This document shows positions 11,685 to 32,601 of a stretch of 64,000 nucleotides of DNA, piece after piece (positions within the stretch are counted from its first letter, which is position 1; each line of letters begins with the position of its first letter). Source of the stretch: Actibacterium ureilyticum (GTDB taxonomy: Bacteria > Pseudomonadota > Alphaproteobacteria > Rhodobacterales > Rhodobacteraceae); assembly GCF_002285435.1 (NCBI RefSeq), contig NZ_NSBT01000037.1:434001-498000 (forward strand), read 5' to 3'. The position numbers and the translations under genes are program-made. Under the pieces are notes generated by a model. That model did no database searches. It was not told the DNA's origin and saw only the letters and a program-made list of their open reading frames with translations.

Positions 11685-12032
11685 ACCACATTCACCTGTC
11701 CTTTCGGGCAGGAACTGGCGGGTGCGATTTACCCGGTGTCAAAAAAACATCACAATGCGCGCGCGCAAGGAACGAAATCTCAACAAAAGCTGGCCCGTTT
11801 GATAACTTAGGGTTAAGGACGTCAAAGGTATATCTGTGCCTAATCAAAGTGAAGAATCGGGGCCCTGATGCGGGCTCCGGTGCATGCTGACCAACGTCGG
11901 GACCGGTCCTGTCTTCGGACAAGACCGCACGCGGTTACGGGCACGGGCGCCGGGGTACTATCTTGGTCTAATGTAAAAGCCAGGCGGGCAAGTGTATGTG
12001 TGCCACGCGGGCGAATGTTGGTGTGACGCGAA
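11685..12032. other. 348-base intergenic region with a UUCG-type hairpin
   Basis: No open frame here looks like a gene. The left part (11740-11850) is less GC-rich than its surroundings. At 11905-11926 arms ggtcctgtc and gacaagacc pair with one mismatch around a ttcg loop, a stable tetraloop form, about 105 bases before the start of the RTX/Hint gene. It has no T-run, so it is more likely a leader structure than a terminator. I see no convincing promoter boxes by eye. Confidence 0.35.
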
Positions 12033-14501
12033 ATGGCAACGATGGTATCGGGTCTTGGGGGCCCCGCAGGTTACGGTGAGAACGTTTTTTCTTCCTCCCC
12101 GAAAGCGGCAGGGGGGAATGACGACGGGTCCGTTGCGATCGACACAACATCCGTCTTCGGTCCGTCCGGCATCAATTTCTTCGGCACCGATTATACGACG
12201 ATCTACCTGAACTCGAACGGGGTGATCTCGTTCGGCGCGCCCGAGACCAGCTTTCAGACCCCCGACTATACCGCCGAGACCACCCCGAACATCGCGGTGT
12301 TCTGGGCCGATGTGAACATCAACTCGGGCGGCGAGATCTATTGGGACATCGACCCGGCGGCGGGTACGATCACCATGACCTGGTTGGACGTGGCGCCCTA
12401 TTCGGGGTCGGGCACGAACTCGTTCCAGGTCATCCTGACCGATACCGGCGGCGGCGGCTTTTCGGTCCAGTATATCTATGAGGATATTCAGTGGACCAAT
12501 GGCGGCGGCAATTCGGCGGCGGCCGGGGTCACCGATGGCGGGTCCTATGACTATACGCTCGAAGGGTCGGGCGACCCCGCGCAGCTGATCAACTATGACA
12601 CCAACGATTTCGACGGCGGCGACCCGGCGGGCAGCTTCGTGCTGGATTTCGCGGCCGGCGAACCGGTGATTCCCGATGGCACGGTCGAGGGGACATCGGG
12701 CGCCGATGTGATCGACGCCAGCTATGCCGGCGACCCCCAGGGCGAGGTCGTCGATGGCGGCGACGGCACAGGCGCCGCCGGGAACGAGGACGTGATCGAC
12801 GCCGGCGCGGGCGATGACACGGTCCTCTCCGGGGACGAGGCCGACACCGTCTATGGCGGCGCGGGCAATGACAGCATTGACGGCGGCGCGGGCAACGACC
12901 TGCTTTATGGCGAGGGTGACAGCGACATCATCACCGGCGGCGACGGCAACGACACGATCTATGGCGATTTCGAAACGCCGCCGCCCGCCGCCACGAACGA
13001 GAATCTGCACTGGGCCGATCAGGGCGCGGACGAATCCAGCCTGACCGCCGGGTTCACACAAAACACCGGCTCGATCGATGTCACCGTCGATTTCACCGAT
13101 GACGGCAATGCCGGTTCGGGCACCAACCCGGGGATCAGCGTCGAAAGCACGACGACGAACTATGTCGCCGGCGGCGAACCCTATGACCCGCAATCCTCGG
13201 CCCAGCTTTGGGGCGAAGGAACGGGCGACACCTCCACCACCAATGTCAGCTTCGCCGCCGCGAACGGTGTCGCGGTCGACGATCAGGTCGCGGACGTGTC
13301 GTTCCGGATCAACGACATCGATGCCGGGAACAATTCCTGGCTGGATGTTATTACCGTCAATGCCTTTGACATCGATGGCAACCCGGTGGCGGTGACGATC
13401 ACACCCGCTGGCGACGACACCGTATCAGGCAACACGATCACAGCCGGACCCAGCCCCAACAACTACAATCAAGCCGAAGGTTCTGCGCTGGTCGAGATTG
13501 CCGGGCCCGTCGCGTATTTCGAGGTGATCTATCAAAACGCCGGCACCTCGGGCCAGGCGATCACCGTAACGGATGTCCATTTCACCACGATCCCATTGAT
13601 TGAGGGGGACGATGTCATCGATGGCGGCATCGGCGCGGACGAGATCTTCGCCGGTGCCGGCGACGACACGATCACCGTGGCCGAAGGCGACACGGTCAGC
13701 GGCGGCGATGGCGACGATACGTTCCTGATCACCGACCTGGGCGAGGCCGGATCGGCCGCGATCAACATTGTCGGCGGCGAAGGCGACGAAACCGCCGGCG
13801 ACACGCTGGATTTCCAGGGCCTGATCAACCAGGACGCCGTGACGATCACAAATGCCGATGACAACGCGGGCGGGCTGAGTGGCTTTGCGACGCTGTCGGA
13901 CGGAACGGTCGTCAACTTCTCGGAAATCGAGACGCTGCTGATCTGCTTCACCGCGGGCACCGGCATTCTGACCCCGCAGGGACAGCGCCCGATCGAGGAT
14001 CTGCGCCCCGGCGATCTGGTCCTGACCGCCGATCACGGGTTGCAGCCGATCCGCTGGATCGGACAGCGCACGGTTCCGGCGCAGGGCAACATGGCGCCCG
14101 TCCTGATCCGCGAGGGCGTGTTCAACAATGCGCGGGATCTGCTGGTTTCGCCCCAGCACCGGATGCTGATCCAGGGCTATCAGGCGCAGCTGATCACCGG
14201 CCAGTCCGAGGTGTTTGCCACCGCCAAGCACCTGATCGACGGCACCAATGTGCTGCGCCACGCGGGCGGCACGGTCACCTATGTCCACCTGATGTTCGAC
14301 CGGCACGAGGTCATCTTTGCCGAAGGCGCCGCAACCGAAAGCTTCCATCCCGGTCAGGTCGGTCTGGACGCGGTTCTGGCCCCTGCGCGCGAGGAACTGT
14401 TCCGGATCTTTCCCGAATTGCGGTCGAATCCCAACGCCTATGGGCCGACCTCGCGCACCTGCCTGCGCCGGCCCGAGGCCCGCGCGCTGCTTGCGGCCTG
14501 A
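12033..14501 (+). CDS. Nidogen-like, RTX-repeat, Hint-domain surface protein
   Basis: An acidic 822-residue protein without an N-terminal signal peptide. Residues about 30-215 resemble a nidogen (NIDO) domain (INFFGTDYTTIYLNSNGVIS, NIAVFWADVN). Residues about 230-320 hold RTX calcium-binding nonapeptides (GGAGNDSIDGGAGNDLLYGE); a beta-rich region follows, and a second short RTX block lies at about 535-575. A C-terminal Hint domain begins at Cys638 (CFTAGTGILTPQG) and contains LVSPQHRMLIQG, as in autoprocessing Hint_2 proteins. RTX proteins are normally secreted by a type I system; none is encoded nearby. I infer a secreted or cell-surface adhesion-like protein that may self-cleave. The start ATG has a weak ribosome site. 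Confidence 0.88.
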   Translation: MATMVSGLGGPAGYGENVFSSSPKAAGGNDDGSVAIDTTSVFGPSGINFFGTDYTTIYLNSNGVISFGAPETSFQTPDYTAETTPNIAVFWADVNINSGGEIYWDIDPAAGTITMTWLDVAPYSGSGTNSFQVILTDTGGGGFSVQYIYEDIQWTNGGGNSAAAGVTDGGSYDYTLEGSGDPAQLINYDTNDFDGGDPAGSFVLDFAAGEPVIPDGTVEGTSGADVIDASYAGDPQGEVVDGGDGTGAAGNEDVIDAGAGDDTVLSGDEADTVYGGAGNDSIDGGAGNDLLYGEGDSDIITGGDGNDTIYGDFETPPPAATNENLHWADQGADESSLTAGFTQNTGSIDVTVDFTDDGNAGSGTNPGISVESTTTNYVAGGEPYDPQSSAQLWGEGTGDTSTTNVSFAAANGVAVDDQVADVSFRINDIDAGNNSWLDVITVNAFDIDGNPVAVTITPAGDDTVSGNTITAGPSPNNYNQAEGSALVEIAGPVAYFEVIYQNAGTSGQAITVTDVHFTTIPLIEGDDVIDGGIGADEIFAGAGDDTITVAEGDTVSGGDGDDTFLITDLGEAGSAAINIVGGEGDETAGDTLDFQGLINQDAVTITNADDNAGGLSGFATLSDGTVVNFSEIETLLICFTAGTGILTPQGQRPIEDLRPGDLVLTADHGLQPIRWIGQRTVPAQGNMAPVLIREGVFNNARDLLVSPQHRMLIQGYQAQLITGQSEVFATAKHLIDGTNVLRHAGGTVTYVHLMFDRHEVIFAEGAATESFHPGQVGLDAVLAPAREELFRIFPELRSNPNAYGPTSRTCLRRPEARALLAA

Positions 14502-24412: not shown

Positions 24413-24488
24413 GGGCAAGGGGCCTGTCGGTACCGGCCTTGTGGTCCAGGGAACAGGTCAAAGAAAAGCCGTCACAGGCCCCTTGCCC
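24413..24488. repeat. Perfect 15-base inverted repeat at convergent gene ends
   Basis: Arms gggcaaggggcctgt (24413-24427) and acaggccccttgccc (24474-24488) are exact reverse complements with a 46-base loop. The left arm is just after the membrane protein gene; the right arm encodes the last residues of the convergent glycosyltransferase. It may act as a shared terminator for both convergent transcripts, although neither side has a T-run. Confidence 0.6.
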
Positions 24489-25537
24489 GCCGCGATCCCC
24501 TGCGGCTCGTGTGGCGGGGCGGCAAGGTCGTCGGTGTTGCGCGCAGGGCGTGCCCGGCGGGCCAGCAGGTCATCAATCACCCCCTGCCAGGCGCGGGCGA
24601 AGTCGGCCTCGACCAGGCTCAGGGTGCCGCGTGGCGCGGGCGGTGGCGGGGCGTTCATCAGCTGCCGCAGCGCCCGGGCCCAATCCGCCACCGATCCCCC
24701 CGGCACCATGGCCACCCCCGGCCCGGCGTGATCGCTCAGGCCATCCACCGCCGCCAGCGCCAACGGGCGCCGCGCCGCCCGCGCCTCGAGCGCGACAAGG
24801 CCATAGGCCTCCCACCGCGAGGGCATGGCGACCGCATCGACCGAGGCCATGGCGCTGGCCGGTGTCTTGACCAGCCCGTGAAAGCCGATCCGGGCGTCCC
24901 CGGCGGCCATGGCGTGCAGCCGCGCGGCCTCGGGGCCCGCGCCGAACAGGGTCAACCGCGCCTGCGGGTCGGTGATCAGCCGAAAGGCCGGGATCAGGAT
25001 GTCGAAGCCCTTTTGCCGGTCGAGCCGCCCGATGGCGCCGATATGCCTGCCCCCGCCCGACGGGGGCCGCATGGCGCGAAAGGCCGACAGGTCGACGGCG
25101 GACCGGATCATCCGCAGCGCGCCGGGTGGCACCAGCCCCTGCGCCCGCAGCCAATCGGCCTGGGCGGGGCTGACGGCGACCACGGCGTCGAACTGGGCAT
25201 AACCGGTGCGCAGCATGGTCAGGAAGCGCCGCCGCGCGGGCACGTTCTGTGTCGCGAAAGCGGGGGTATAGCTGTGTTCGACATGCACCATCGGCATCCC
25301 CGCATGACGGTGCCGAAAAGCCACCAGCCGGAGCAGCCCGCGCCAGCCCAGCGCCAGGTGCGACACGGCGATATCGGCCTGAACCCGCGGCAGCGCCCCG
25401 CCGCGCGAGACCGAGCGGACAACATGGCATCCCCCGACGGCCAGGCGCGGGCAGCTGGCCAGATGGCCAAGCACCCGCATCACCCCGCCGGGCGTGGTGT
25501 CGTCGATCAGGTGCAGGATCGTGGGCAGGCGGGTCAT
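24458..25537 (-). CDS. Glycosyltransferase, GT4 (GT-B fold)
   Basis: A 359-residue GT-B enzyme, third gene of a glycosyltransferase operon. The N-terminal half begins TRLPTILHLIDDTTPGGVMR; the C-terminal nucleotide-sugar-binding half has GAIGRLDRQKGFDILIPAFR, TLFGAGPEAARLH and the E-x7-E-type motif SRWEAYGLVALEARA. It probably adds a sugar to a lipid-linked surface polysaccharide at the cytoplasmic membrane face. The start overlaps the upstream gene's stop (ATGA at 25534-25537), so translation is coupled; an in-frame extension upstream is rejected. Confidence 0.9.
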   Translation of the reverse strand: MTRLPTILHLIDDTTPGGVMRVLGHLASCPRLAVGGCHVVRSVSRGGALPRVQADIAVSHLALGWRGLLRLVAFRHRHAGMPMVHVEHSYTPAFATQNVPARRRFLTMLRTGYAQFDAVVAVSPAQADWLRAQGLVPPGALRMIRSAVDLSAFRAMRPPSGGGRHIGAIGRLDRQKGFDILIPAFRLITDPQARLTLFGAGPEAARLHAMAAGDARIGFHGLVKTPASAMASVDAVAMPSRWEAYGLVALEARAARRPLALAAVDGLSDHAGPGVAMVPGGSVADWARALRQLMNAPPPPAPRGTLSLVEADFARAWQGVIDDLLARRARPARNTDDLAAPPHEPQGIAAGKGPVTAFL

Positions 25538-26541
25538 GGCGTTCTTTCCGGCATGTGGCGGGCAGCCAGACGGCGCAGCGCCGCCGCCCAATCCAGCGGC
25601 GCGCGGCCGAACCGCTGCAACGCGCGGGCGGCCAGCCAGGTGGTCAGGGTCTTGAGCGGCTCCTCGACCAACGGCGCGCGCGAGGCCGCCAGCGCCTGCG
25701 CGGCCAGACGACAGGCCGCCGCCGCATCGCCATTGCGTACCGACCGACGCGCCAGATAGCGCAGCTGATAGGCCCGCGCGGCATCGGTATGGGTGGCAAA
25801 GAAGGCCGGCGCAAGCGGGCGCAGCTTGACCACCATCCGTTCCCAGGACTGCATCTGGCGGTCGGTATCGGCCGACAGCGCGTCACGGTGGATCCGGTAA
25901 CAGGTCAACAGCCCCGGCACGCCCTCGATCCGCCAGTCGGTGCACAGCGCGAAACGCAGCCAGCATTCGATATCCTCGGACTGGCGAAAGGTCTCGTCGA
26001 AGATCCAGTCGCGCTGGAATTCGATCCGGGGCCGCCAGGCGATCGCGTCCAGCGCGGCGCGGCGGAACACAGGGGCCGAGCCGTTGCCGACCGGGTTGCG
26101 CTTGAACACATGGCGCGGGGTGATCCCCGCCAAGCGGGGCCGTTGCGCGTGGCCCGTGGCGCGGCCCTGTGCGTCGATCAGAAGCGACCCCGAAAAGCTG
26201 AGCCCGACGGCGGGCGCGGTGGCGAAATGGGCGATATGGGTCTGCAGCTTGGCCGGGTGCCACAGGTCGTCTGCGTCGCAGAACCCGATATAGGCGCCGG
26301 TCGCCTGGGCGATGCCGCTGTTGCGCGCCCCCGCCAGGCCGCGATTGGGCTGCTTGACCAGCCGGATGCGCGGGTCGGCATCGGCGGCGTGGGCGACGAT
26401 CGCGGCGGTCTCGTCGGTCGAGCCGTCATCGACCACCACCACCTCGAGATCGCGGCAGGTCTGGCCCTGCAGCGACCGCAGCGTGTCCGGCAGGGTTGCG
26501 GCGGCGTTGAAGGCGGGAACGACGATGGAGGCAAGGGGCAT
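25534..26541 (-). CDS. Glycosyltransferase, GT2 family
   Basis: A 335-residue GT-A enzyme. The N-terminal domain has SIVVPAFNAAATLPDTLRSL, VVVVDDGSTDETAA and the nucleotide/metal-binding GFCDADDLWHPAKL; the likely catalytic acid lies in FRQSEDIECWLRF. The C-terminal hundred residues are Ala/Arg-rich and helical. A strong aggaggtccgga ribosome site overlaps the end of the upstream glycosyltransferase gene. It is paralogous to the next gene upstream; both probably extend the same surface glycan. Sugar and acceptor are not predictable. Confidence 0.92.
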   Translation of the reverse strand: MPLASIVVPAFNAAATLPDTLRSLQGQTCRDLEVVVVDDGSTDETAAIVAHAADADPRIRLVKQPNRGLAGARNSGIAQATGAYIGFCDADDLWHPAKLQTHIAHFATAPAVGLSFSGSLLIDAQGRATGHAQRPRLAGITPRHVFKRNPVGNGSAPVFRRAALDAIAWRPRIEFQRDWIFDETFRQSEDIECWLRFALCTDWRIEGVPGLLTCYRIHRDALSADTDRQMQSWERMVVKLRPLAPAFFATHTDAARAYQLRYLARRSVRNGDAAAACRLAAQALAASRAPLVEEPLKTLTTWLAARALQRFGRAPLDWAAALRRLAARHMPERTP

Positions 26542-26552
26542 TCCGGACCTCC

Positions 26553-27476
26553 TCAGTGGGAAAACAGGCTTCGCCGGACCGCCGCGGGCAACACCTGCGC
26601 CAACAGCGCGCCCAGCGCCGTCGCCGCCCCGCGCCGCGGCGGACAGAGAAACGACCGCGCATCGCGCGACAGGCCGCGACGGGTCATGTCCCAGGCGATC
26701 CGGGGCGCCAGGTTCAGTCGCAGCGCCCGCCGCGCGAGATAGCGGTAATGCAGCGCCTCTTCCGCCGGGCGGACGGTCACGCCAAAGCTCTGGGCGGTCA
26801 GCAGCGCGCGATCACGGGCCGCGATCATCGCCGTCAGGTCCGAGGACAGCCCGCTGCCCGAGGTGCGATAGCAGACATGCAGATGGTTCACGCCGCACAG
26901 CCGATAGCCCTGTCCGATCAGCCGGATCTGCCAATCCAGATCCTCGTTATGCAGCAGATCGGCGTCGAACCCGCCTGTCGCCTCGAACACCGCGCGCGCC
27001 ACGGTCAGGTTCGACAACGTGCAGACCGGGTTTTCGCCCAGCAGCATGCGGATGCTGATTTCGCCCTCGGGCACGGTCGACCTGGTGCGGATCTTGTGCG
27101 GCTGGTTCTGGAAAAAGCCGATCTGGCCGAACACGGCCTCGACCTCGCCCTCGGCGAACCGCTGGGCGACGCTGGTCAGCTTGCCGGGCGCCCAGACATC
27201 ATCGGCATCGCAAAACGCCACATAGGTGCCGCTGGCACAATCGATGGCGCCGAAATTCCGCGCCGCGCTGGGACCCTTGCCGGGGTTGGGCACCACACGG
27301 ATGCGGTGATCGGCCCGCGCAAAGCGCCGGGCCAGCGCCACCGTGCCGTCGGTCGAACCGTCGTCGACGACAATCGCCTCCCAGTCGCGGCAGGTCTGGA
27401 CCTGCACCCCGCGCAGGGTCTGGGTCAGGGTCTTTTCGGCGTTCAGGGCCGGGATGACGACGGAAAACTTGGTCAT
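26553..27476 (-). CDS. Glycosyltransferase, GT2 family (first gene of operon)
   Basis: A 307-residue GT-A enzyme with FSVVIPALNAEKTLTQTL, AIVVDDGSTDGTVALARR, the DxD-type AFCDADDVWAPGKL and a catalytic-region NEDLDWQIRL. It heads an operon of three glycosyltransferases. I start at the ATG at 27476; an in-frame extension to 27662 would run through the promoter region and has no GT similarity. The two GT2 proteins share the order of motifs and a positively charged helical C-terminus and may have arisen by duplication. Confidence 0.92.
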   Translation of the reverse strand: MTKFSVVIPALNAEKTLTQTLRGVQVQTCRDWEAIVVDDGSTDGTVALARRFARADHRIRVVPNPGKGPSAARNFGAIDCASGTYVAFCDADDVWAPGKLTSVAQRFAEGEVEAVFGQIGFFQNQPHKIRTRSTVPEGEISIRMLLGENPVCTLSNLTVARAVFEATGGFDADLLHNEDLDWQIRLIGQGYRLCGVNHLHVCYRTSGSGLSSDLTAMIAARDRALLTAQSFGVTVRPAEEALHYRYLARRALRLNLAPRIAWDMTRRGLSRDARSFLCPPRRGAATALGALLAQVLPAAVRRSLFSH

Positions 27477-27751
27477 GGGCGCGCTCTGTGCTGGTCGTGG
27501 GGAAAGATCGCGTCCACCGACCGGCCCGCGCGCCCGTTGCGGGCTGTCAGGGGGGCAAAAAGGATAGCTGGGGTGCGGGTCACTGTGGGTCTCCAATCTC
27601 TGACCCAGAGCTAGCCTGTCGGCCCCTGCCCTGTCGCCCGCGCGGCGGGACGGGCGAGGCACACATTGGGGGTGGGACCTATCCTGTCGACTAGGATCTC
27701 TATGCGCGCAGGCCCGGTGCCCTATCCCGCGCGGATGGCGGGACGTGCCGG
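27477..27751. other. 275-base spacer: glycosyltransferase operon leader and kinase 3' region
   Basis: No gene is apparent. A perfect 7-base inverted repeat (tcgcccg at 27634-27640, cgggcga at 27651-27657) could form a GC hairpin that ends the histidine kinase transcript, although no T-run follows. At 27677 the motif acctatcctgtcg occurs; similar acctatcc motifs are found in other spacers of this window. The promoter of the glycosyltransferase operon must lie here, but I cannot assign boxes with confidence. Confidence 0.4.
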
Positions 27752-30292
27752 TCAGGCGATCCGCGGCGCCGGGGCCTCGTGCCAGGCGACGCGGGCGTCG
27801 GCAATGGCGCGGGCCAGACGGTCGTGGTCGCCCGCCTCGGCCGCGGCCTCGACATGCAGCAGCGCGGTGCGCAGATCGGGCTGTCCGAAGGCGGCGGCGC
27901 TGCCCGCGATCTGGTGGCAGCGGTCGGCAATCGCCGCCATGTCGCCGGGCGCCCCGGCCAACCAGTCGAAAAGCGCGGCCGCCTCGGCCAGATAGCGGTC
28001 CTTGAGCGCGGCGATCGGGTCGGCGGGGGCCCGTGGCGGTGGCGGGGCTTTGGCGGCGGGGGCCGAAACCGGGGGCGTTGCCGGGGCGGCCGCATCCGGG
28101 CCGCAGAGCCGGTTCAGCAGCATCACCAGCTCGTCAGGGTCCAGCGGCTTGCCCAGAAAGGCCGACATCCCCCCCGACAGGAAGCGGTCCTTGGCCTCGG
28201 GCAGGACATTGGCGGAAAACGCCACGATGGGGATATCGGCGTTCGGTCCGCCCCCTTCGCGGATGGCGCGGGTCGCGGCCAGACCGTCCATGACCGGCAT
28301 GCGGATATCCATCAGCACCAGGTCGAACCGCTGGTGCTGGGCGATATCCACCGCCTGCAACCCGTTTTGCGCGGCGGTCACCTTGTGGCCCATGCCGCCC
28401 AGCAGATCCTGCGCCAGATGCAGGTTGATCTCGTTATCCTCGGCCACCAGGATCCGCAGCCCGCGCAGCGCAGCCGTGTCCGGCGCGTGGCTGTCGGTCG
28501 CGTCGGTGGCGCTGGCGGGCACGACCGGAATGCGGAACCAGAACACGCTGCCCTCGTCCAGGGTGCTTTCGACGCCGATCTCGCCGCCCATGGCGGTCAC
28601 GAAACGCTTGGCGATGCCCAGACCCAGCCCGGTGCCGCCCAGATCCGATTTGAGCGGCTTGGCGAGGGATTCGAAATCGTCGAAGACCCGCGAAAGATCG
28701 GCCTCGGCAATGCCGATCCCGGTGTCGATGATGCGGAACTCGACCGCCGCCGCGCCATCGGCGCCGACCTGTTCCAGCTCGATCGCGATCCGACCGTCGG
28801 TGGTGAACTTGATGGCGTTGCCCAGCAGGTTCAGGATCACCTGTTGCAGGCGCGAGGAATCCACCTCGACCCAGGTGGCGGGGGGGCCGGTCCAGCTCCA
28901 TTCCACGATATTGCCATGCGCTTCGGCCGCGCCCAGCTGGGAATCCACGATATCCTGCACAAGCCGCCCCAGATGCACCGCCTGGCCTTGGGTTTCGGTC
29001 ATCCCGCTTTCGAACCGCGCGATATCCAGAACCGCATCCACGTGCGACATCAGCAACTTGCCGGAGATCCCCATATGGCGCACGAAGCGTTCCTGTTCGC
29101 TGTCCAGCCGGGTCTTGCGCAGCAGCGACAGGTTGCCCAGAACCCCGTTCAGCGGCGTGCGGATCTCGTGCGTCATCATCGCCAGGAACTCGGCCTTGGC
29201 CTTTTCACCGGCCAACGCGCTGTCGCGTGCCTCGACCAGTTCGGCCTCGTCCTTTACCCGCTGCGAGATGTCGCGGAGGAAGCCGATGATGATCTGCCCG
29301 CTTTCGGTATCGGCCATTTCCAGCGCCAGCTCGACCGGGAAGACCTCGCCGTTCTTGCGCTGCGCTTCCAGTTCGACCCGGCCCATGCCCACCACATGAC
29401 GCTCGCCCGTCAGGGCAAAGCGGCGCATGCCCGCCTCGTGCGCATCGCGCAGATGGTCGGGGATCAGGATATCGCCGAGGGTCCTGCCGATCACATCCTC
29501 GCGCCGATAGCCGAAGATCCGTTCCGACACGCTGTTGAAATCCAGGATCCGCCCCTGCAGGTCCGACACAACCAGCGCATCCAGCGACGCTTCCAGGATC
29601 GTATCCATCCGCGACAGGGCCGAGGTGAGCTCTCGCCCGCGGCGCTTGGCGACCCGGCCCGCGATCTGGGCGTGGCGCATCAGGATGACCAGCGCGACGA
29701 CCAGCGTGGTGGTCAGAAAGGCCATGCGCAGCAGCGTGACCGCAATCGACCGGCGGCGCGCATCGGATTGCTCGGCAAAGACCAGCAGGCCGGAATTGGC
29801 GATCCGCCGCACATCGCCGCGCGATGCATCGGCCCCCTCGGCAAGCGTTTCCAGCCCCGCCCGCAGCGCGGCGGGGTCGCCATCGATCAGCGGGATCATC
29901 GCATCCAGGCGGGATTTCACCAGGTTCAGCGCGCTGCCGAATTCCGGCAGATCGCGCAGCGGCGCGTAAAGGGCGCCGGTCGAAAGGGTCGACATCCGGC
30001 TGTAGAAGATATCGAATTCGCGCCGCACCGCCTCGAGGTCGGGAACGTGATTTTCCCGCGCCAGGTCCAGCGCGTGCTGGAATTCCAGGAATTCGACCTC
30101 GGCCTGGGACAGGGTCCATTGCACATTGTCGGAATTGGCCGAGCTGAGCAGCCGCAGGTCGCGCACGATCTCGACCGCCAGAAACGCGATTGTGGCCACG
30201 CAAAGCGCGGCCACCAGCACAAGGATGACAGATCCCCGGCGCCTGAGATTTCGCAATCCGGACATGTCACGGTCTTCGGTTTCGGGCGACAT
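27752..30292 (-). CDS. Hybrid sensor histidine kinase (PAS, HisKA, ATPase, receiver, Hpt)
   Basis: An 846-residue membrane phosphorelay kinase. Membrane helices at about 21-42 and 186-206 flank a periplasmic helical domain (about 45-185). A PAS domain follows (about 228-345), then the H-box FLAMMTHEIRTPLNG (His375), an ATPase domain with GNAIKF and LGGTGLGLGI, a receiver domain (about 612-725; acidic AEDNEIN, phosphoacceptor Asp662 in LMDIRMPVMDG, and GKP), a Pro-rich linker and an Hpt domain with His793 in CHQIAGSAAAFG. All phosphotransfer residues are present. It starts 7 bases after a periplasmic molybdopterin-fold protein gene, which likely supplies its signal. The output regulator is not certain. 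Confidence 0.95.
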   Translation of the reverse strand: MSPETEDRDMSGLRNLRRRGSVILVLVAALCVATIAFLAVEIVRDLRLLSSANSDNVQWTLSQAEVEFLEFQHALDLARENHVPDLEAVRREFDIFYSRMSTLSTGALYAPLRDLPEFGSALNLVKSRLDAMIPLIDGDPAALRAGLETLAEGADASRGDVRRIANSGLLVFAEQSDARRRSIAVTLLRMAFLTTTLVVALVILMRHAQIAGRVAKRRGRELTSALSRMDTILEASLDALVVSDLQGRILDFNSVSERIFGYRREDVIGRTLGDILIPDHLRDAHEAGMRRFALTGERHVVGMGRVELEAQRKNGEVFPVELALEMADTESGQIIIGFLRDISQRVKDEAELVEARDSALAGEKAKAEFLAMMTHEIRTPLNGVLGNLSLLRKTRLDSEQERFVRHMGISGKLLMSHVDAVLDIARFESGMTETQGQAVHLGRLVQDIVDSQLGAAEAHGNIVEWSWTGPPATWVEVDSSRLQQVILNLLGNAIKFTTDGRIAIELEQVGADGAAAVEFRIIDTGIGIAEADLSRVFDDFESLAKPLKSDLGGTGLGLGIAKRFVTAMGGEIGVESTLDEGSVFWFRIPVVPASATDATDSHAPDTAALRGLRILVAEDNEINLHLAQDLLGGMGHKVTAAQNGLQAVDIAQHQRFDLVLMDIRMPVMDGLAATRAIREGGGPNADIPIVAFSANVLPEAKDRFLSGGMSAFLGKPLDPDELVMLLNRLCGPDAAAPATPPVSAPAAKAPPPPRAPADPIAALKDRYLAEAAALFDWLAGAPGDMAAIADRCHQIAGSAAAFGQPDLRTALLHVEAAAEAGDHDRLARAIADARVAWHEAPAPRIA

Positions 30293-30299
30293 CTGGGGC

Positions 30300-30818
30300 T
30301 TACTGCTTCACGTCGATCCTGTCGAGTTGCCAGATGCTGCGCGAATAGATCACCTCGGACCGGAACTTGTTGGACGCGGCATAGGGATAGATCACCCAAA
30401 GCGGCCCCTTTTCGCGGCGGTGCATGGCGTTGCCGTTCAGCGCATAGGCCACGATCGGCCCGTCATCGGTCGCGTCCGAGACCGGGATTTCCACCGCGTA
30501 ATCGTTGATCGCCACGGCAGCCAGCGTTTCGCCCTGGGCGCCCACATGCTCCAGCAGCGTGTTCAGGCGCACACCGACGAAGACCTGCTCGCCCTCGGTC
30601 CAGATCGTGTCGGTGACGATCTCGCTGGCATCCAGCGCCTGCAGCATCTCAAGGTCGAACTGCGCGGCGTCGGGGGCGTTGGTCTGGGTGATGTTTCCGG
30701 TAACAGTCAGAATGACCTCGCCCGTGGGGGCCGGCAGGCCTTCGGCCCGGGCCGCGTGTCCGGTCAGGGTCATCAGTGTCGCCATAACGGCAACACACAG
30801 GGTTTTCAGTCGGTACAT
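30300..30818 (-). CDS. Periplasmic molybdopterin-oxidoreductase-fold protein without cysteine
   Basis: A 172-residue exported protein (signal peptide about 1-25, ending AARA) resembling the sulfite-oxidase/Oxidoreductase_molyb domain: GEVILTVTGNI, FDLEMLQAL, VGVRLNTLLEHVGAQG, VAINDYAVEIP and KGPLWVIYPY. The mature chain contains no cysteine at all, so it lacks the residue that coordinates the molybdenum cofactor in active enzymes; I infer a ligand-binding or sensory role. A gaggagacgatc ribosome site precedes the ATG at 30818. It is directly upstream of the hybrid kinase in the same operon, which points to a sensor-partner role. Confidence 0.82.
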   Translation of the reverse strand: MYRLKTLCVAVMATLMTLTGHAARAEGLPAPTGEVILTVTGNITQTNAPDAAQFDLEMLQALDASEIVTDTIWTEGEQVFVGVRLNTLLEHVGAQGETLAAVAINDYAVEIPVSDATDDGPIVAYALNGNAMHRREKGPLWVIYPYAASNKFRSEVIYSRSIWQLDRIDVKQ

Positions 30819-30890
30819 GATCGTCTCCTCGATACGCAGGCACATCATAGGCCAAACCGGCGATCTTGGGCACGGGGTTTCGGGATGGGC

Positions 30891-30912
30891 ACCCTATCCG
30901 TTCGGATAGGGT
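30891..30912 (-). other. Stop-codon hairpin at the end of the frameshifted glycosyltransferase
   Basis: Arms accctatccg (30891-30900) and cggatagggt (30903-30912) are perfect reverse complements with a two-base centre, so about eight pairs can form around a six-base loop. The stem contains the TAG stop of the minus-strand gene. There is no T-run after it; it may mark a transcript end or a palindromic protein site. Confidence 0.4.
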
Positions 30913-31726
30913 CGCGCGGCGCGGGTGTTCGGGGCCGGGCTGGCACCGCGCCCCTGACGCCGCGCATGCAGGGCCGCGCGCACCATGAAGGCCACATTGC
31001 CCAGCAGATACCGGCGCGCCAGGCGGCGCGGCTCCATCGCCAGGCGCCAGACCCATTCCATCCGCGCCTTGCGCACCCAAAGCGGCGCGCGCCGGACCGT
31101 ACCGGCCAGGAAATCGAACAGCCCGCCCACGCCCAGGATCAGCCCCGCCGACAGGTGACGGGCATTGCGGTCGATCCACAGCTCTTGCAGCGGCGCACCC
31201 ATGGCCACCAGGACGATGTCGGCGCCCGAGCCGTTGATCGCCCGCAGCACAGCACCGGTATCGCGCGCACCGTCATAGCCGTCGCGGGTCCCGCAATCCG
31301 CAGGCCGGGGATCTTCCGCGCCAAAGCGCGCCCCGCCGCCGCCGCCGTGCCCGGCCGCGCCCCGAACAGATAGACCGATTTGCCCTGCGCCGCCGCTGCG
31401 CGCAGCAGCGCGGGGGTGAAATCGGTGCCGTTCAGGTTCTGCGTCAGCCCGCCCCCGGTCATCCGCGCCGCAAGCTCGATCCCGATCCCGTCGGGCAGCA
31501 CCGCATCGGCCCGCTCCAGCGCCGCGGCGTAACCGGCATTGCCCGCGCACAGGTTGGCGCAATGGGCGTTCAGGAAAAAGACCGTCCGCGCGCCACCGGC
31601 CAGCAGCCAGTCCGCCGTGCGCCGGGTGGATGCATCGACCACCGGCACCCCCATCACGCGGCGGGTGGGAATGGGCGGCGGGATGGCAAAGCGCTGTGCG
31701 AATGCGGTTGCGGGGTCGTGTTTCAT
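30894..31726 (-). pseudogene. WecG/TagA/CpsF-type glycosyltransferase, broken by one frameshift
   Basis: Two overlapping frames together encode one GT26 enzyme. The N-terminal part (from ATG 31726, with aaagg before it) reads MKHDPATAFAQRFAIPPP and includes TVFFLNAHCANLCAGN, VLPDGIGIELAARM and VYLFGARPGTAAAAGRALA. After KIPGLRIAG the frame is lost. The other frame continues with GYDGARDTGAVLRAIN, IVLVAMGAPLQELWI and FDFLAGTVRRAPLWVRKA. One base is missing near 31290 in a short C run; restoring it gives 277 residues, a normal length. Members transfer N-acetylmannosamine or similar sugars to lipid-linked intermediates. It is either a true mutation or an assembly error. Confidence 0.85.
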
Positions 31727-31872
31727 GTCGGGGCCTTTCGGGGTCGATCCTGTACCCCTATGGGTGCCCCGCCCCGCCGCCGCGGCGCAATTCCGCCAAC
31801 GGACAGCCCCGCGCCCATATCGCGCCATCCACGCCCCGCTGAGCACCCGGCGCGCCCGCCGGTCCCCTGCCG

Positions 31873-31888
31873 CTATACGGGCGTATAG
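31873..31888. promoter_or_regulatory. Perfect 16-base palindrome in the LuxR/TagA divergent region
   Basis: Arms ctatacg (31873-31879) and cgtatag (31882-31888) flank gg. It is about 100 bases before the LuxR-type regulator and 147 bases before the glycosyltransferase pseudogene, between the divergent starts. Size and symmetry fit a dimeric regulator site; which protein binds is unknown. Confidence 0.5.
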
Positions 31889-31986
31889 GCCGCCATGTCC
31901 GTTCGCGCGGCGCGATCGGGCCCACAGGCGCTTAACAAGTCAGGGATTAGCTGCTTAGATGGGACAACCGGATATGGTGAGTAGTG

Positions 31987-32601
31987 ATGAGAATTTTGAT
32001 TGCCGACGATCACGATCTGTTGCGCGATACGCTTGTGGCGTTCCTGGGGGCGGACGGGTCCATCGAAACGGCGGCCGCCGCCAGTTTCCCCGAAGCCTGT
32101 GACCAGATCCGCAGCGACGGTCCCTTCAACCTGGTGCTGCTGGATTTCAAGATGCCCGGCATGAACGGGCTGGACAGCCTGCGCGAGGCCATCGCGATGG
32201 AGGGCGGCCAGCGGGTCGCGCTGATCTCGGGCGAGGCCACGCGCGAGATCGCCGAACAGGCGCTGGAAATGGGCGCGGCGGGCTTCATCCCCAAGACGCT
32301 GCCGGCGAAATCGCTGGTCAACGCGGTGAAATTCATGGCTATGGGCGAACAATACGCGCCCATCGACTTCATGACCGCCCCAGAAGAGGCCGACGAGCAC
32401 CCGCTGGCCAAGCGCCTGACCCCGCGCGAGATGGACGTGCTGCGCGGGTTGTCGACGGGCAAGTCGAACAAGGAAATCGCCCGCGACCTGGATCTGACCG
32501 AACCGACGATCAAGCTGCACATGAAAACGCTCTATCGCAAGCTGGGGGTCAACAACCGCACCCAGGCCGCGATCACGGCGCGGGATTCGGGCCTGTTCTG
32601 A
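31987..32601 (+). CDS. Response regulator, NarL/FixJ type with LuxR HTH
   Basis: A 204-residue response regulator. The receiver (about 1-120) has the acidic pair in MRILIADDHDLLRDTL, phosphoacceptor Asp in LVLLDFKMPGMNGLDSL, and the conserved Lys in GFIPKTLPA. The LuxR HTH (about 140-200) reads LTPREMDVLRGLSTGKSNKE, then TIKLHMKTLYRKLGVNNRTQ. It is the nearest possible output for the hybrid kinase 4 kb away, though not cotranscribed with it. The ATG at 31987 is preferred over GTG at 31984. A palindrome lies upstream. Confidence 0.93.
   Translation: MRILIADDHDLLRDTLVAFLGADGSIETAAAASFPEACDQIRSDGPFNLVLLDFKMPGMNGLDSLREAIAMEGGQRVALISGEATREIAEQALEMGAAGFIPKTLPAKSLVNAVKFMAMGEQYAPIDFMTAPEEADEHPLAKRLTPREMDVLRGLSTGKSNKEIARDLDLTEPTIKLHMKTLYRKLGVNNRTQAAITARDSGLF

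Follow-up and report, generated by a model that had tools for sequence, protein, structure and literature searches.

What does a periplasmic protein with the fold of a molybdenum enzyme do beside a histidine kinase if it lacks the cysteine that ligates the cofactor, and what does such a pair control? The question is raised by two adjacent genes in 64,000 nt of Actibacterium ureilyticum (GCF_002285435.1, NZ_NSBT01000037.1, positions 434,001–498,000, forward strand). This whole stretch is referred to as the window, and positions below are counted from its first letter.

30300–30818, minus strand: pruR, encoding a PruR-type periplasmic pterin-binding protein of 172 amino acids (aa) with a signal-like N-terminus and a fold of the sulfite oxidase (SUOX) type (phmmer, AlphaFold, Foldseek, pocket residues)
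27752–30292, minus strand: hybrid histidine kinase of the DTB type, 846 aa (Pfam, motif positions, model of the periplasmic domain)

We consider it likely that the locus is a PruR-DTB pterin-sensing system together with its output, in which a pterin would act through PruR, a kinase phosphorelay and a LuxR-type regulator on exopolysaccharide (EPS) genes. The family, fold, domain order and gene order reported here, as well as the operator motif and its occurrence, were computed, and the comparison took in about 150 related gene neighbourhoods in total. A first sample of 100 regions (about 19 kb each, L050–L149) around PruR or kinase matches within the same order was selected manually from two lists ranked by score (13 and 87), with one region per genus as the aim. 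PruR was present in 99 of them, and the remaining one (L061) was dropped, leaving 99 relative loci. A second set comprised 59 loci from named genomes, of which six duplicated the first sample, so that 53 were kept; it includes several Ruegeria species, and its loci are therefore not independent.

The PruR protein and its hybrid kinase

The 172-aa protein is a PruR-type pterin-binding protein. The original prediction, made from the DNA letters and translations, had seen a sulfite-oxidase-like pattern without a cysteine in the mature chain, and both points were borne out. Residues 75–147 match PF00174 (Oxidored_molyb, 1.6e-07), and the only cysteine, Cys8, lies inside the hydrophobic N-terminus, which ends in AARA/E and was assigned as signal segment by eye (with the in-frame ATG at 30848 as start, the protein would be 10 aa longer). 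Among solved structures, phmmer matched 7kos/7kou (1.9e-36), 7rkb (8.9e-35), 7kp2 (5.7e-23) and 7kom (6.9e-19). The fold search that had been suggested as a check was run with an AlphaFold model (mean predicted local distance difference test, pLDDT, 96.2): Foldseek gave 7kos and 7rkb as the best structures, with 7kos, the Agrobacterium PruR, at 46% identity and a template modelling (TM) score of 0.95; sulfite dehydrogenases and oxidases reached only 0.59–0.70 by query length. The alignment with 7kos is gapless and places N105, Y107 and W163 on N102, Y104 and W160 of A. tumefaciens, whose roles are described in PMC13259868. In an alignment of 100 PruR homologues, Trp73, Asn105 and Trp163 are invariant and Tyr107 is kept in 99. 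By analogy with relatives at 46% identity, a pterin is the presumed ligand. The same genome encodes a PruA-like pteridine reductase, a short-chain dehydrogenase/reductase (L042) with TGGAKRLG and YTIAK, corresponding to the motifs TGX3RXG and YX3K given for such enzymes in PMC13259868.

Had the cysteine been lost in A. ureilyticum only, homologues should have kept it in the same position. None of them does: the mature part is free of cysteine in 99 of the 100 aligned homologues, and the lone cysteine in the remaining one is located in an insertion. A loss peculiar to this species was therefore rejected. When PruR was aligned by profile to the MsrP of this genome (E 0.0023), the match started at residue 70, which puts the MsrP cysteine at about Thr69 of PruR; this placement is approximate because the alignment begins just past the cysteine position.

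The kinase starts with the ATG at 30292, 7 bp past the pruR stop, and both reading frames lie where they had been drawn. It consists of a helical periplasmic domain with a WX7E motif (W59-x7-E67), a PAS domain (228–344), HisKA (His375), HATPase, a receiver (Asp662) and a putative Hpt domain (His793). The PAS, HisKA, receiver and Hpt domains with all phospho-residues had been predicted, and all of these residues were found. Pfam found PAS, HisKA, HATPase_c and Response_reg, with HisKA, HATPase_c and Response_reg above its cut-offs, but no Hpt domain at E<=0.01. The kinase does carry the motif CHQIAGSAAAFG, and a profile grown from the C-terminal segment found the same domain in 86 of the 99 partner proteins. 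The assignment as Hpt thus draws on the motif and on this home-grown profile. The best NCBIfam match was TorS (TIGR02956, 8.7e-98, 328.6 bits, against a family cut-off of 676.5 bits).

The periplasmic domain was modelled as all-helical (pLDDT 94.5). A fold search returned nothing at E<=0.001 and, below that level, only weak matches to NarQ-like and chemoreceptor-like helical bundles. The WX7E motif is well kept: among 95 aligned partner domains the tryptophan is present in 94, and the residue eight positions further is glutamate in 72 and aspartate in 19 (acidic in 91 of 95). According to a 2026 review (PMC13259868), PruR is periplasmic, prefers tetrahydromonapterin, is without the cysteine for the molybdenum cofactor (Moco) and has its docking site on the periplasmic part of DcpA; the kinase-coupled version is named PruR-DTB, for DcpA-TorS-BaeS-type kinase, with Ruegeria pomeroyi WP_011045932.1 as an example. 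Since the WX7E motif is retained in the window's kinase and in the partner domains, the pair is a PruR-DTB system as described there and is itself not new. The missing cysteine, the feature noticed first, is consequently a trait of the family. The cytoplasmic part holds kinase domains in place of the GGDEF-EAL part that marks PruR-DcpA, and none of the three GGDEF matches in the genome lies at this locus. The pattern recurs throughout a family, which puts it well outside what chance would produce.

A few relatives carry other partners. In the same order, PruR is paired with a GGDEF protein in L110 and with a GGDEF-EAL protein in L114, so both output types occur. In L139, PruR precedes a receiver-PP2C-like protein (PP2C by eye) and no kinase, and in L125 and L145, from two genomes, PruR has no membrane partner and is followed by a SelO-like gene (named by eye).

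The LuxR-type regulator, its candidate operator and EPS genes

The kinase ends in a putative Hpt domain, and therefore a separate receiver protein is expected. The conserved candidate lies outside the coordinates of the original prediction:

31984–32601, plus strand: response regulator of the LuxR/NarL type (REC-GerE) and the proposed output of the phosphorelay, with its start perhaps at the ATG at 31987 (Pfam, locus conservation)

Conservation of the neighbourhood, another suggested check, was examined in the first sample. A homologue of the regulator is present in 86 of the 99 relative loci. With the window included (100 loci), it stands divergently upstream of pruR in 78: within 500 bp in 43, with WecG or GalU in between in 33, and farther away in two. 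Six further regulators are codirectional upstream and three are downstream. The phospho-acceptor aspartate is found in 87 of 87 aligned regulators, and the linkage also holds in second copies of the system within one genome (e.g. L050/L058 and L051/L052).

In 29 of the 99 relatives, the module is embedded in a Wzx/Wzy-type EPS cluster. In this arrangement Wzy and Wzz lie beyond the regulator, and a WecG-Bac_transf fusion (often with GalU) stands before pruR; the kinase follows, then Wza facing it, and then Wzx and three glycosyltransferases. WecG, Bac_transf, Poly_export, Polysacc_synt and NTP_transferase matches from Pfam back these names in the relatives, while Wzy and Wzz, which had no Pfam match, were named from position and length only. 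In a tree of the module, all 30 EPS-type loci fall into one clade (45 of 84 loci, support 0.99) that has 15 non-EPS members.

We then looked for a shared DNA motif by enumerating spaced words only in the DNA upstream of the regulator (84 loci). CTAT-N8-ATAG occurred in 25 of the 84 regions, against a maximum of 8 for any word in a shuffled set. The refined motif is a 20-bp palindrome with the core CCTATCC-N4-GGATAGG, which exceeds 7 bits in 70 of the 84 loci. At a threshold of at least 17 bits, 1.87 Mb contained 148 sites; 20 column-shuffled matrices gave a mean of 1.75 and a maximum of 5. First-order Markov sequence (2 Mb) gave 1.5 sites per Mb at 14 bits but had no site of 17 bits or more. 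Around the module, the window has these sites:

30892–30911, no strand: putative operator CCCTATCCGTTCGGATAGGG, perfect, 23.6 bits, its centre 83 bp before the pruR ATG
31871–31890, no strand: operator-like palindrome CGCTATACGGGCGTATAGGC, weaker (14.0 bits) but perfect, between the regulator and a WecG remnant
27677–27696, no strand: degenerate operator, 15.9 bits, of which one half-site is intact; it lies between the kinase and the glycosyltransferase gene GT1

The last of these we read as a relic; relatives have the divergent Wza/Wzx promoter at this place.

In 43 loci, pruR shares with the regulator the intergenic region that served for training. Fairer tests come from the second set, whose loci were new, and from the EPS-type loci, whose pruR, Wzz and Wza/Wzx promoters had no part in training. 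We scanned promoters (−350 to +60, at least 17 bits) in the 29 EPS-type relatives and the window. Sites were found before pruR in 29 of 30, Wzz in 25 of 29, Wza in 16 of 29 and Wzx in 17 of 24 cases, and before WecG, in a region common to the regulator's promoter, in 12 of 30. None of the operon-internal controls had one (0/137; GT2 0/52, GT4 0/26, Wzy 0/28, kinase 0/31), and among the other genes in these loci there was one in 134. The remaining, non-EPS loci gave 37/69 for pruR and 17/868 for other genes. In the second set, pruR carried a site in 30 of 37 loci with an upstream regulator versus 1 of 16 without (Fisher p=3.6e-07). Its 15 EPS-type loci had sites before pruR (14/15), Wzz (13/15), Wza (6/15) and Wzx (6/15), and none before the kinase (0/15), GT2 (0/15) or Wzy (0/13). 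At the level of whole genomes, the exact core occurs in 77 of 187 genomes with PruR versus 8 of 105 without (p 2.2e-10), where the PruR-positive count includes weak matches (E down to 1e-5), some of them perhaps SUOX enzymes, and both this p-value and that of the second set are inflated by the relatedness of the genomes. A reversed control pattern was found in 8 of the 187 and 4 of the 105 (12 of 292 overall), so the exact sites of PruR-negative genomes are about at background.

From 20 regions fetched around exact sites, the gene starts beside 15 sites were inspected, several of which had no gene start that passed the filter. The genes were mixed; a sugar transferase (L232), a mannose-1-phosphate guanylyltransferase (L244) and a putative BapA-prefix-like adhesin (L237) stood out. 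L244 comes from a genome without a PruR match (G177) and combines, within 19 kb, the regulator with a ManC-like gene and six operator-like sites.

The glycan genes beside the A. ureilyticum pair are a decayed remnant of this arrangement:

30894–31846, minus strand: remnant of a WecG/TagA-type glycosyltransferase, broken over two reading frames and without the fused Bac_transf half of the relatives
26553–27476, minus strand: GT1, family 2 glycosyltransferase (the listed reading frame reaches 27662; Pfam, homologues in 29 of 99 loci)
25534–26541, minus strand: GT2, family 2 glycosyltransferase (Pfam, 29 of 99 loci)
24458–25591, minus strand: GT3, family 4 glycosyltransferase (Pfam, 29 of 99 loci)

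Only the regulator, the WecG remnant, pruR, the kinase and GT1–GT3 are left; the 64-kb window has no Wzy, Wzz, Wza or Wzx. Contig C12 of this genome holds all the missing genes, with an intact WecG fusion among them, together with GT1–GT3, and the gene order is unchanged. This cluster is without regulator, pruR and kinase, and it has the operator in its Wza-Wzx promoter. Genome G144 shows the same split, with a cluster on C43 (L235) that is likewise without the module.

The core with at most one mismatch occurs at five places only in the whole 4.1-Mb genome. Two are those before pruR and in the Wza-Wzx promoter on C12 (20.9 bits); the Wzz-WecG region of C12 has a further site of 16.5 bits. The third precedes, by 70 bp, a 195-aa gene that is next to a second regulator, and the fifth lies (C9:162409) between HemJ-like and Maf-like reading frames (named by eye). 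The fourth, on C30, is discussed below. The genome has three more Wza-type genes, none of them near any of the five places.

The scheme we propose is as follows. PruR would be exported to the periplasm, bind a small reduced pterin in its truncated molybdopterin pocket and dock on the helical periplasmic domain of the kinase, altering kinase activity. Phosphate would pass from His375 to Asp662 and His793, and from there to the receiver aspartate of the neighbouring regulator, a dimer of which would bind CCTATCC-N4-GGATAGG. The regulator would control its own and the pruR promoter (feedback) and, in EPS-linked relatives, also the EPS promoters (Wzz-Wzy, WecG-sugar transferase, Wza and Wzx-glycosyltransferases). 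It may act either as an activator or as a repressor. The local EPS genes have decayed and the intact copy on C12 still carries the operator; control of EPS in this genome therefore probably acts in trans. The original prediction was that the phosphorelay may act on the glycan genes beside it. A surface glycan as the target holds in outline, but the adjoining genes are the remnant, and the likely target is the intact C12 cluster, reached through the LuxR-type regulator.

Outside these genes, an 822-aa secreted protein with Hint_2, RTX and NIDO domains (12033–14498, plus strand; region 11694–14498) has an operator-like site of 13.5 bits about 330 bp before its start and is a possible further target.

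Competing explanations

Several observations weigh against this scheme. No regulator above 150 bits is nearby in 13 of the 100 loci, and 4 of these 13 keep the site in the pruR promoter. Nearly half of the pruR promoters in non-EPS loci stay below 17 bits. Among 25 PruR-negative genomes, the presence of the regulator does not track the exact site (2 of 8 with the site, 2 of 17 without). An exact copy of the pruR operator on C30 (about 498695–498697; L160 695–714), just outside the window end and 7 bp past the stop of a DUF302-like reading frame (by eye), has no obvious target. When regulator residues were compared with half-site variants, helix-turn-helix position 184 ranked second, but positions in the receiver scored alike, and the covariation is therefore explained by ancestry. 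The link between regulator and palindrome is an association, confounded by shared ancestry. Moreover, the pterin ligand, the docking, the order of phosphotransfer and the identity of the DNA-binding protein are all steps that we infer.

The genome also encodes the second regulator mentioned above, of the same subfamily and with its own nearby site:

L158 8611–9443 (C30, about 1180610–1181442): second regulator, 58% identity, with an operator-like site before the 195-aa gene, beside reading frames of 1724 and 879 aa

As a member of the same subfamily with a site of its own, this paralogue could bind the same operators. It is conceivable that PruR-DTB sensing is real while the LuxR-type neighbour is not the partner of the kinase, that the palindrome belongs to another regulator such as this paralogue, and that the EPS genes are mere neighbours. 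The association data are unable to separate the two readings, and the sites kept in loci without a regulator fit this one. However, the regulator is linked to pruR in most loci, second copies in one genome included, the pruR site tracks it in the second set, and a kinase that ends in Hpt needs a separate receiver. We therefore regard another regulator as unlikely.

It seems very unlikely that the palindrome is an RNA hairpin, an intrinsic terminator or a mobile palindromic repeat. It is palindromic and bounded by G+C, the site at 30892 runs into the end of the WecG remnant, and the C30 copy lies directly past a stop codon. Yet sites occur between divergent genes (in the regulator-pruR and Wza-Wzx intergenic regions), they are tied to gene starts of specific families, and they are rare in the genome. 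Arm positions also vary without pairing, with a Watson-Crick fraction of 0.78 at positions 6/13 and 0.79 at 5/14. This variation and the tie to gene starts led us to reject a hairpin or terminator.

We give next to no credence to a working or degenerate molybdenum enzyme in place of a sensor, and rejected a working one outright: the PF00174 match and TM scores of about 0.7 to sulfite dehydrogenases are outweighed by the lack of cysteine throughout the family, by best structures that bind pterin (7kos, 7rkb) and by separate cysteine-bearing SUOX-family enzymes in the same genome (L001, L002).

Relation to known systems

That an enzyme fold was recruited as a ligand sensor feeding a phosphorelay, as originally predicted, stands in outline but is not new, as ligand class and recruitment are already published (PMC13259868). 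The main text of that review nowhere uses the terms "response regulator", "LuxR", "Hpt" or "phosphorelay". Neither that text nor the literature listings searched turned up the regulator, the operator or the EPS targets; the 2024 primary PruR paper was outside this search, and we do not claim their absence from print. Listings joining pterin, exopolysaccharide and two-component systems contained nothing relevant. Kinase-coupled PruR systems are widespread, but the text of the review assigns them no output. Given a conserved regulator, a defined operator and only a few target promoters, such an output can now be tested in a few experiments.

Like the published PruR-DTB systems (PMC13259868), the window has a two-gene operon with the PruR fold and pocket, a DcpA-type periplasmic domain with WX7E and the order PAS-HisKA-HATPase-receiver. 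It differs in the putative C-terminal Hpt domain past the receiver, which the published domain description does not mention, and the neighbouring response regulator, the operator and the EPS targets that we assign here go beyond it. With sulfite oxidase and MsrP (YedY) the protein shares the PF00174 fold, but it is a single small domain without the Moco-ligating cysteine or an enzyme context. TorS-type hybrid kinases have the same His-Asp-His order, but a different periplasmic domain and partner protein, and the family cut-off is not reached.

A further parallel is PruR-DcpA of Agrobacterium tumefaciens, with which the locus shares PruR, the periplasmic motif, a PruA-like reductase in the genome and, as proposed, an output in polysaccharide or biofilm. 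There, DcpA is a GGDEF-EAL protein acting via cyclic di-GMP (c-di-GMP), whereas the partner here is a hybrid kinase that is proposed to act via a transcription factor. With somewhat less confidence than for the locus as such, we favour the view that in Rhodobacteraceae PruR-DTB is the input of a self-regulating phosphorelay, whose LuxR-type regulator and operator put EPS under periplasmic pterin (redox) control, and that in A. ureilyticum this control was kept across replicons after the cluster had moved or been replaced. If true, pterin signalling would have a second route to the control of polysaccharides in addition to c-di-GMP, a transcriptional counterpart to PruR-DcpA.

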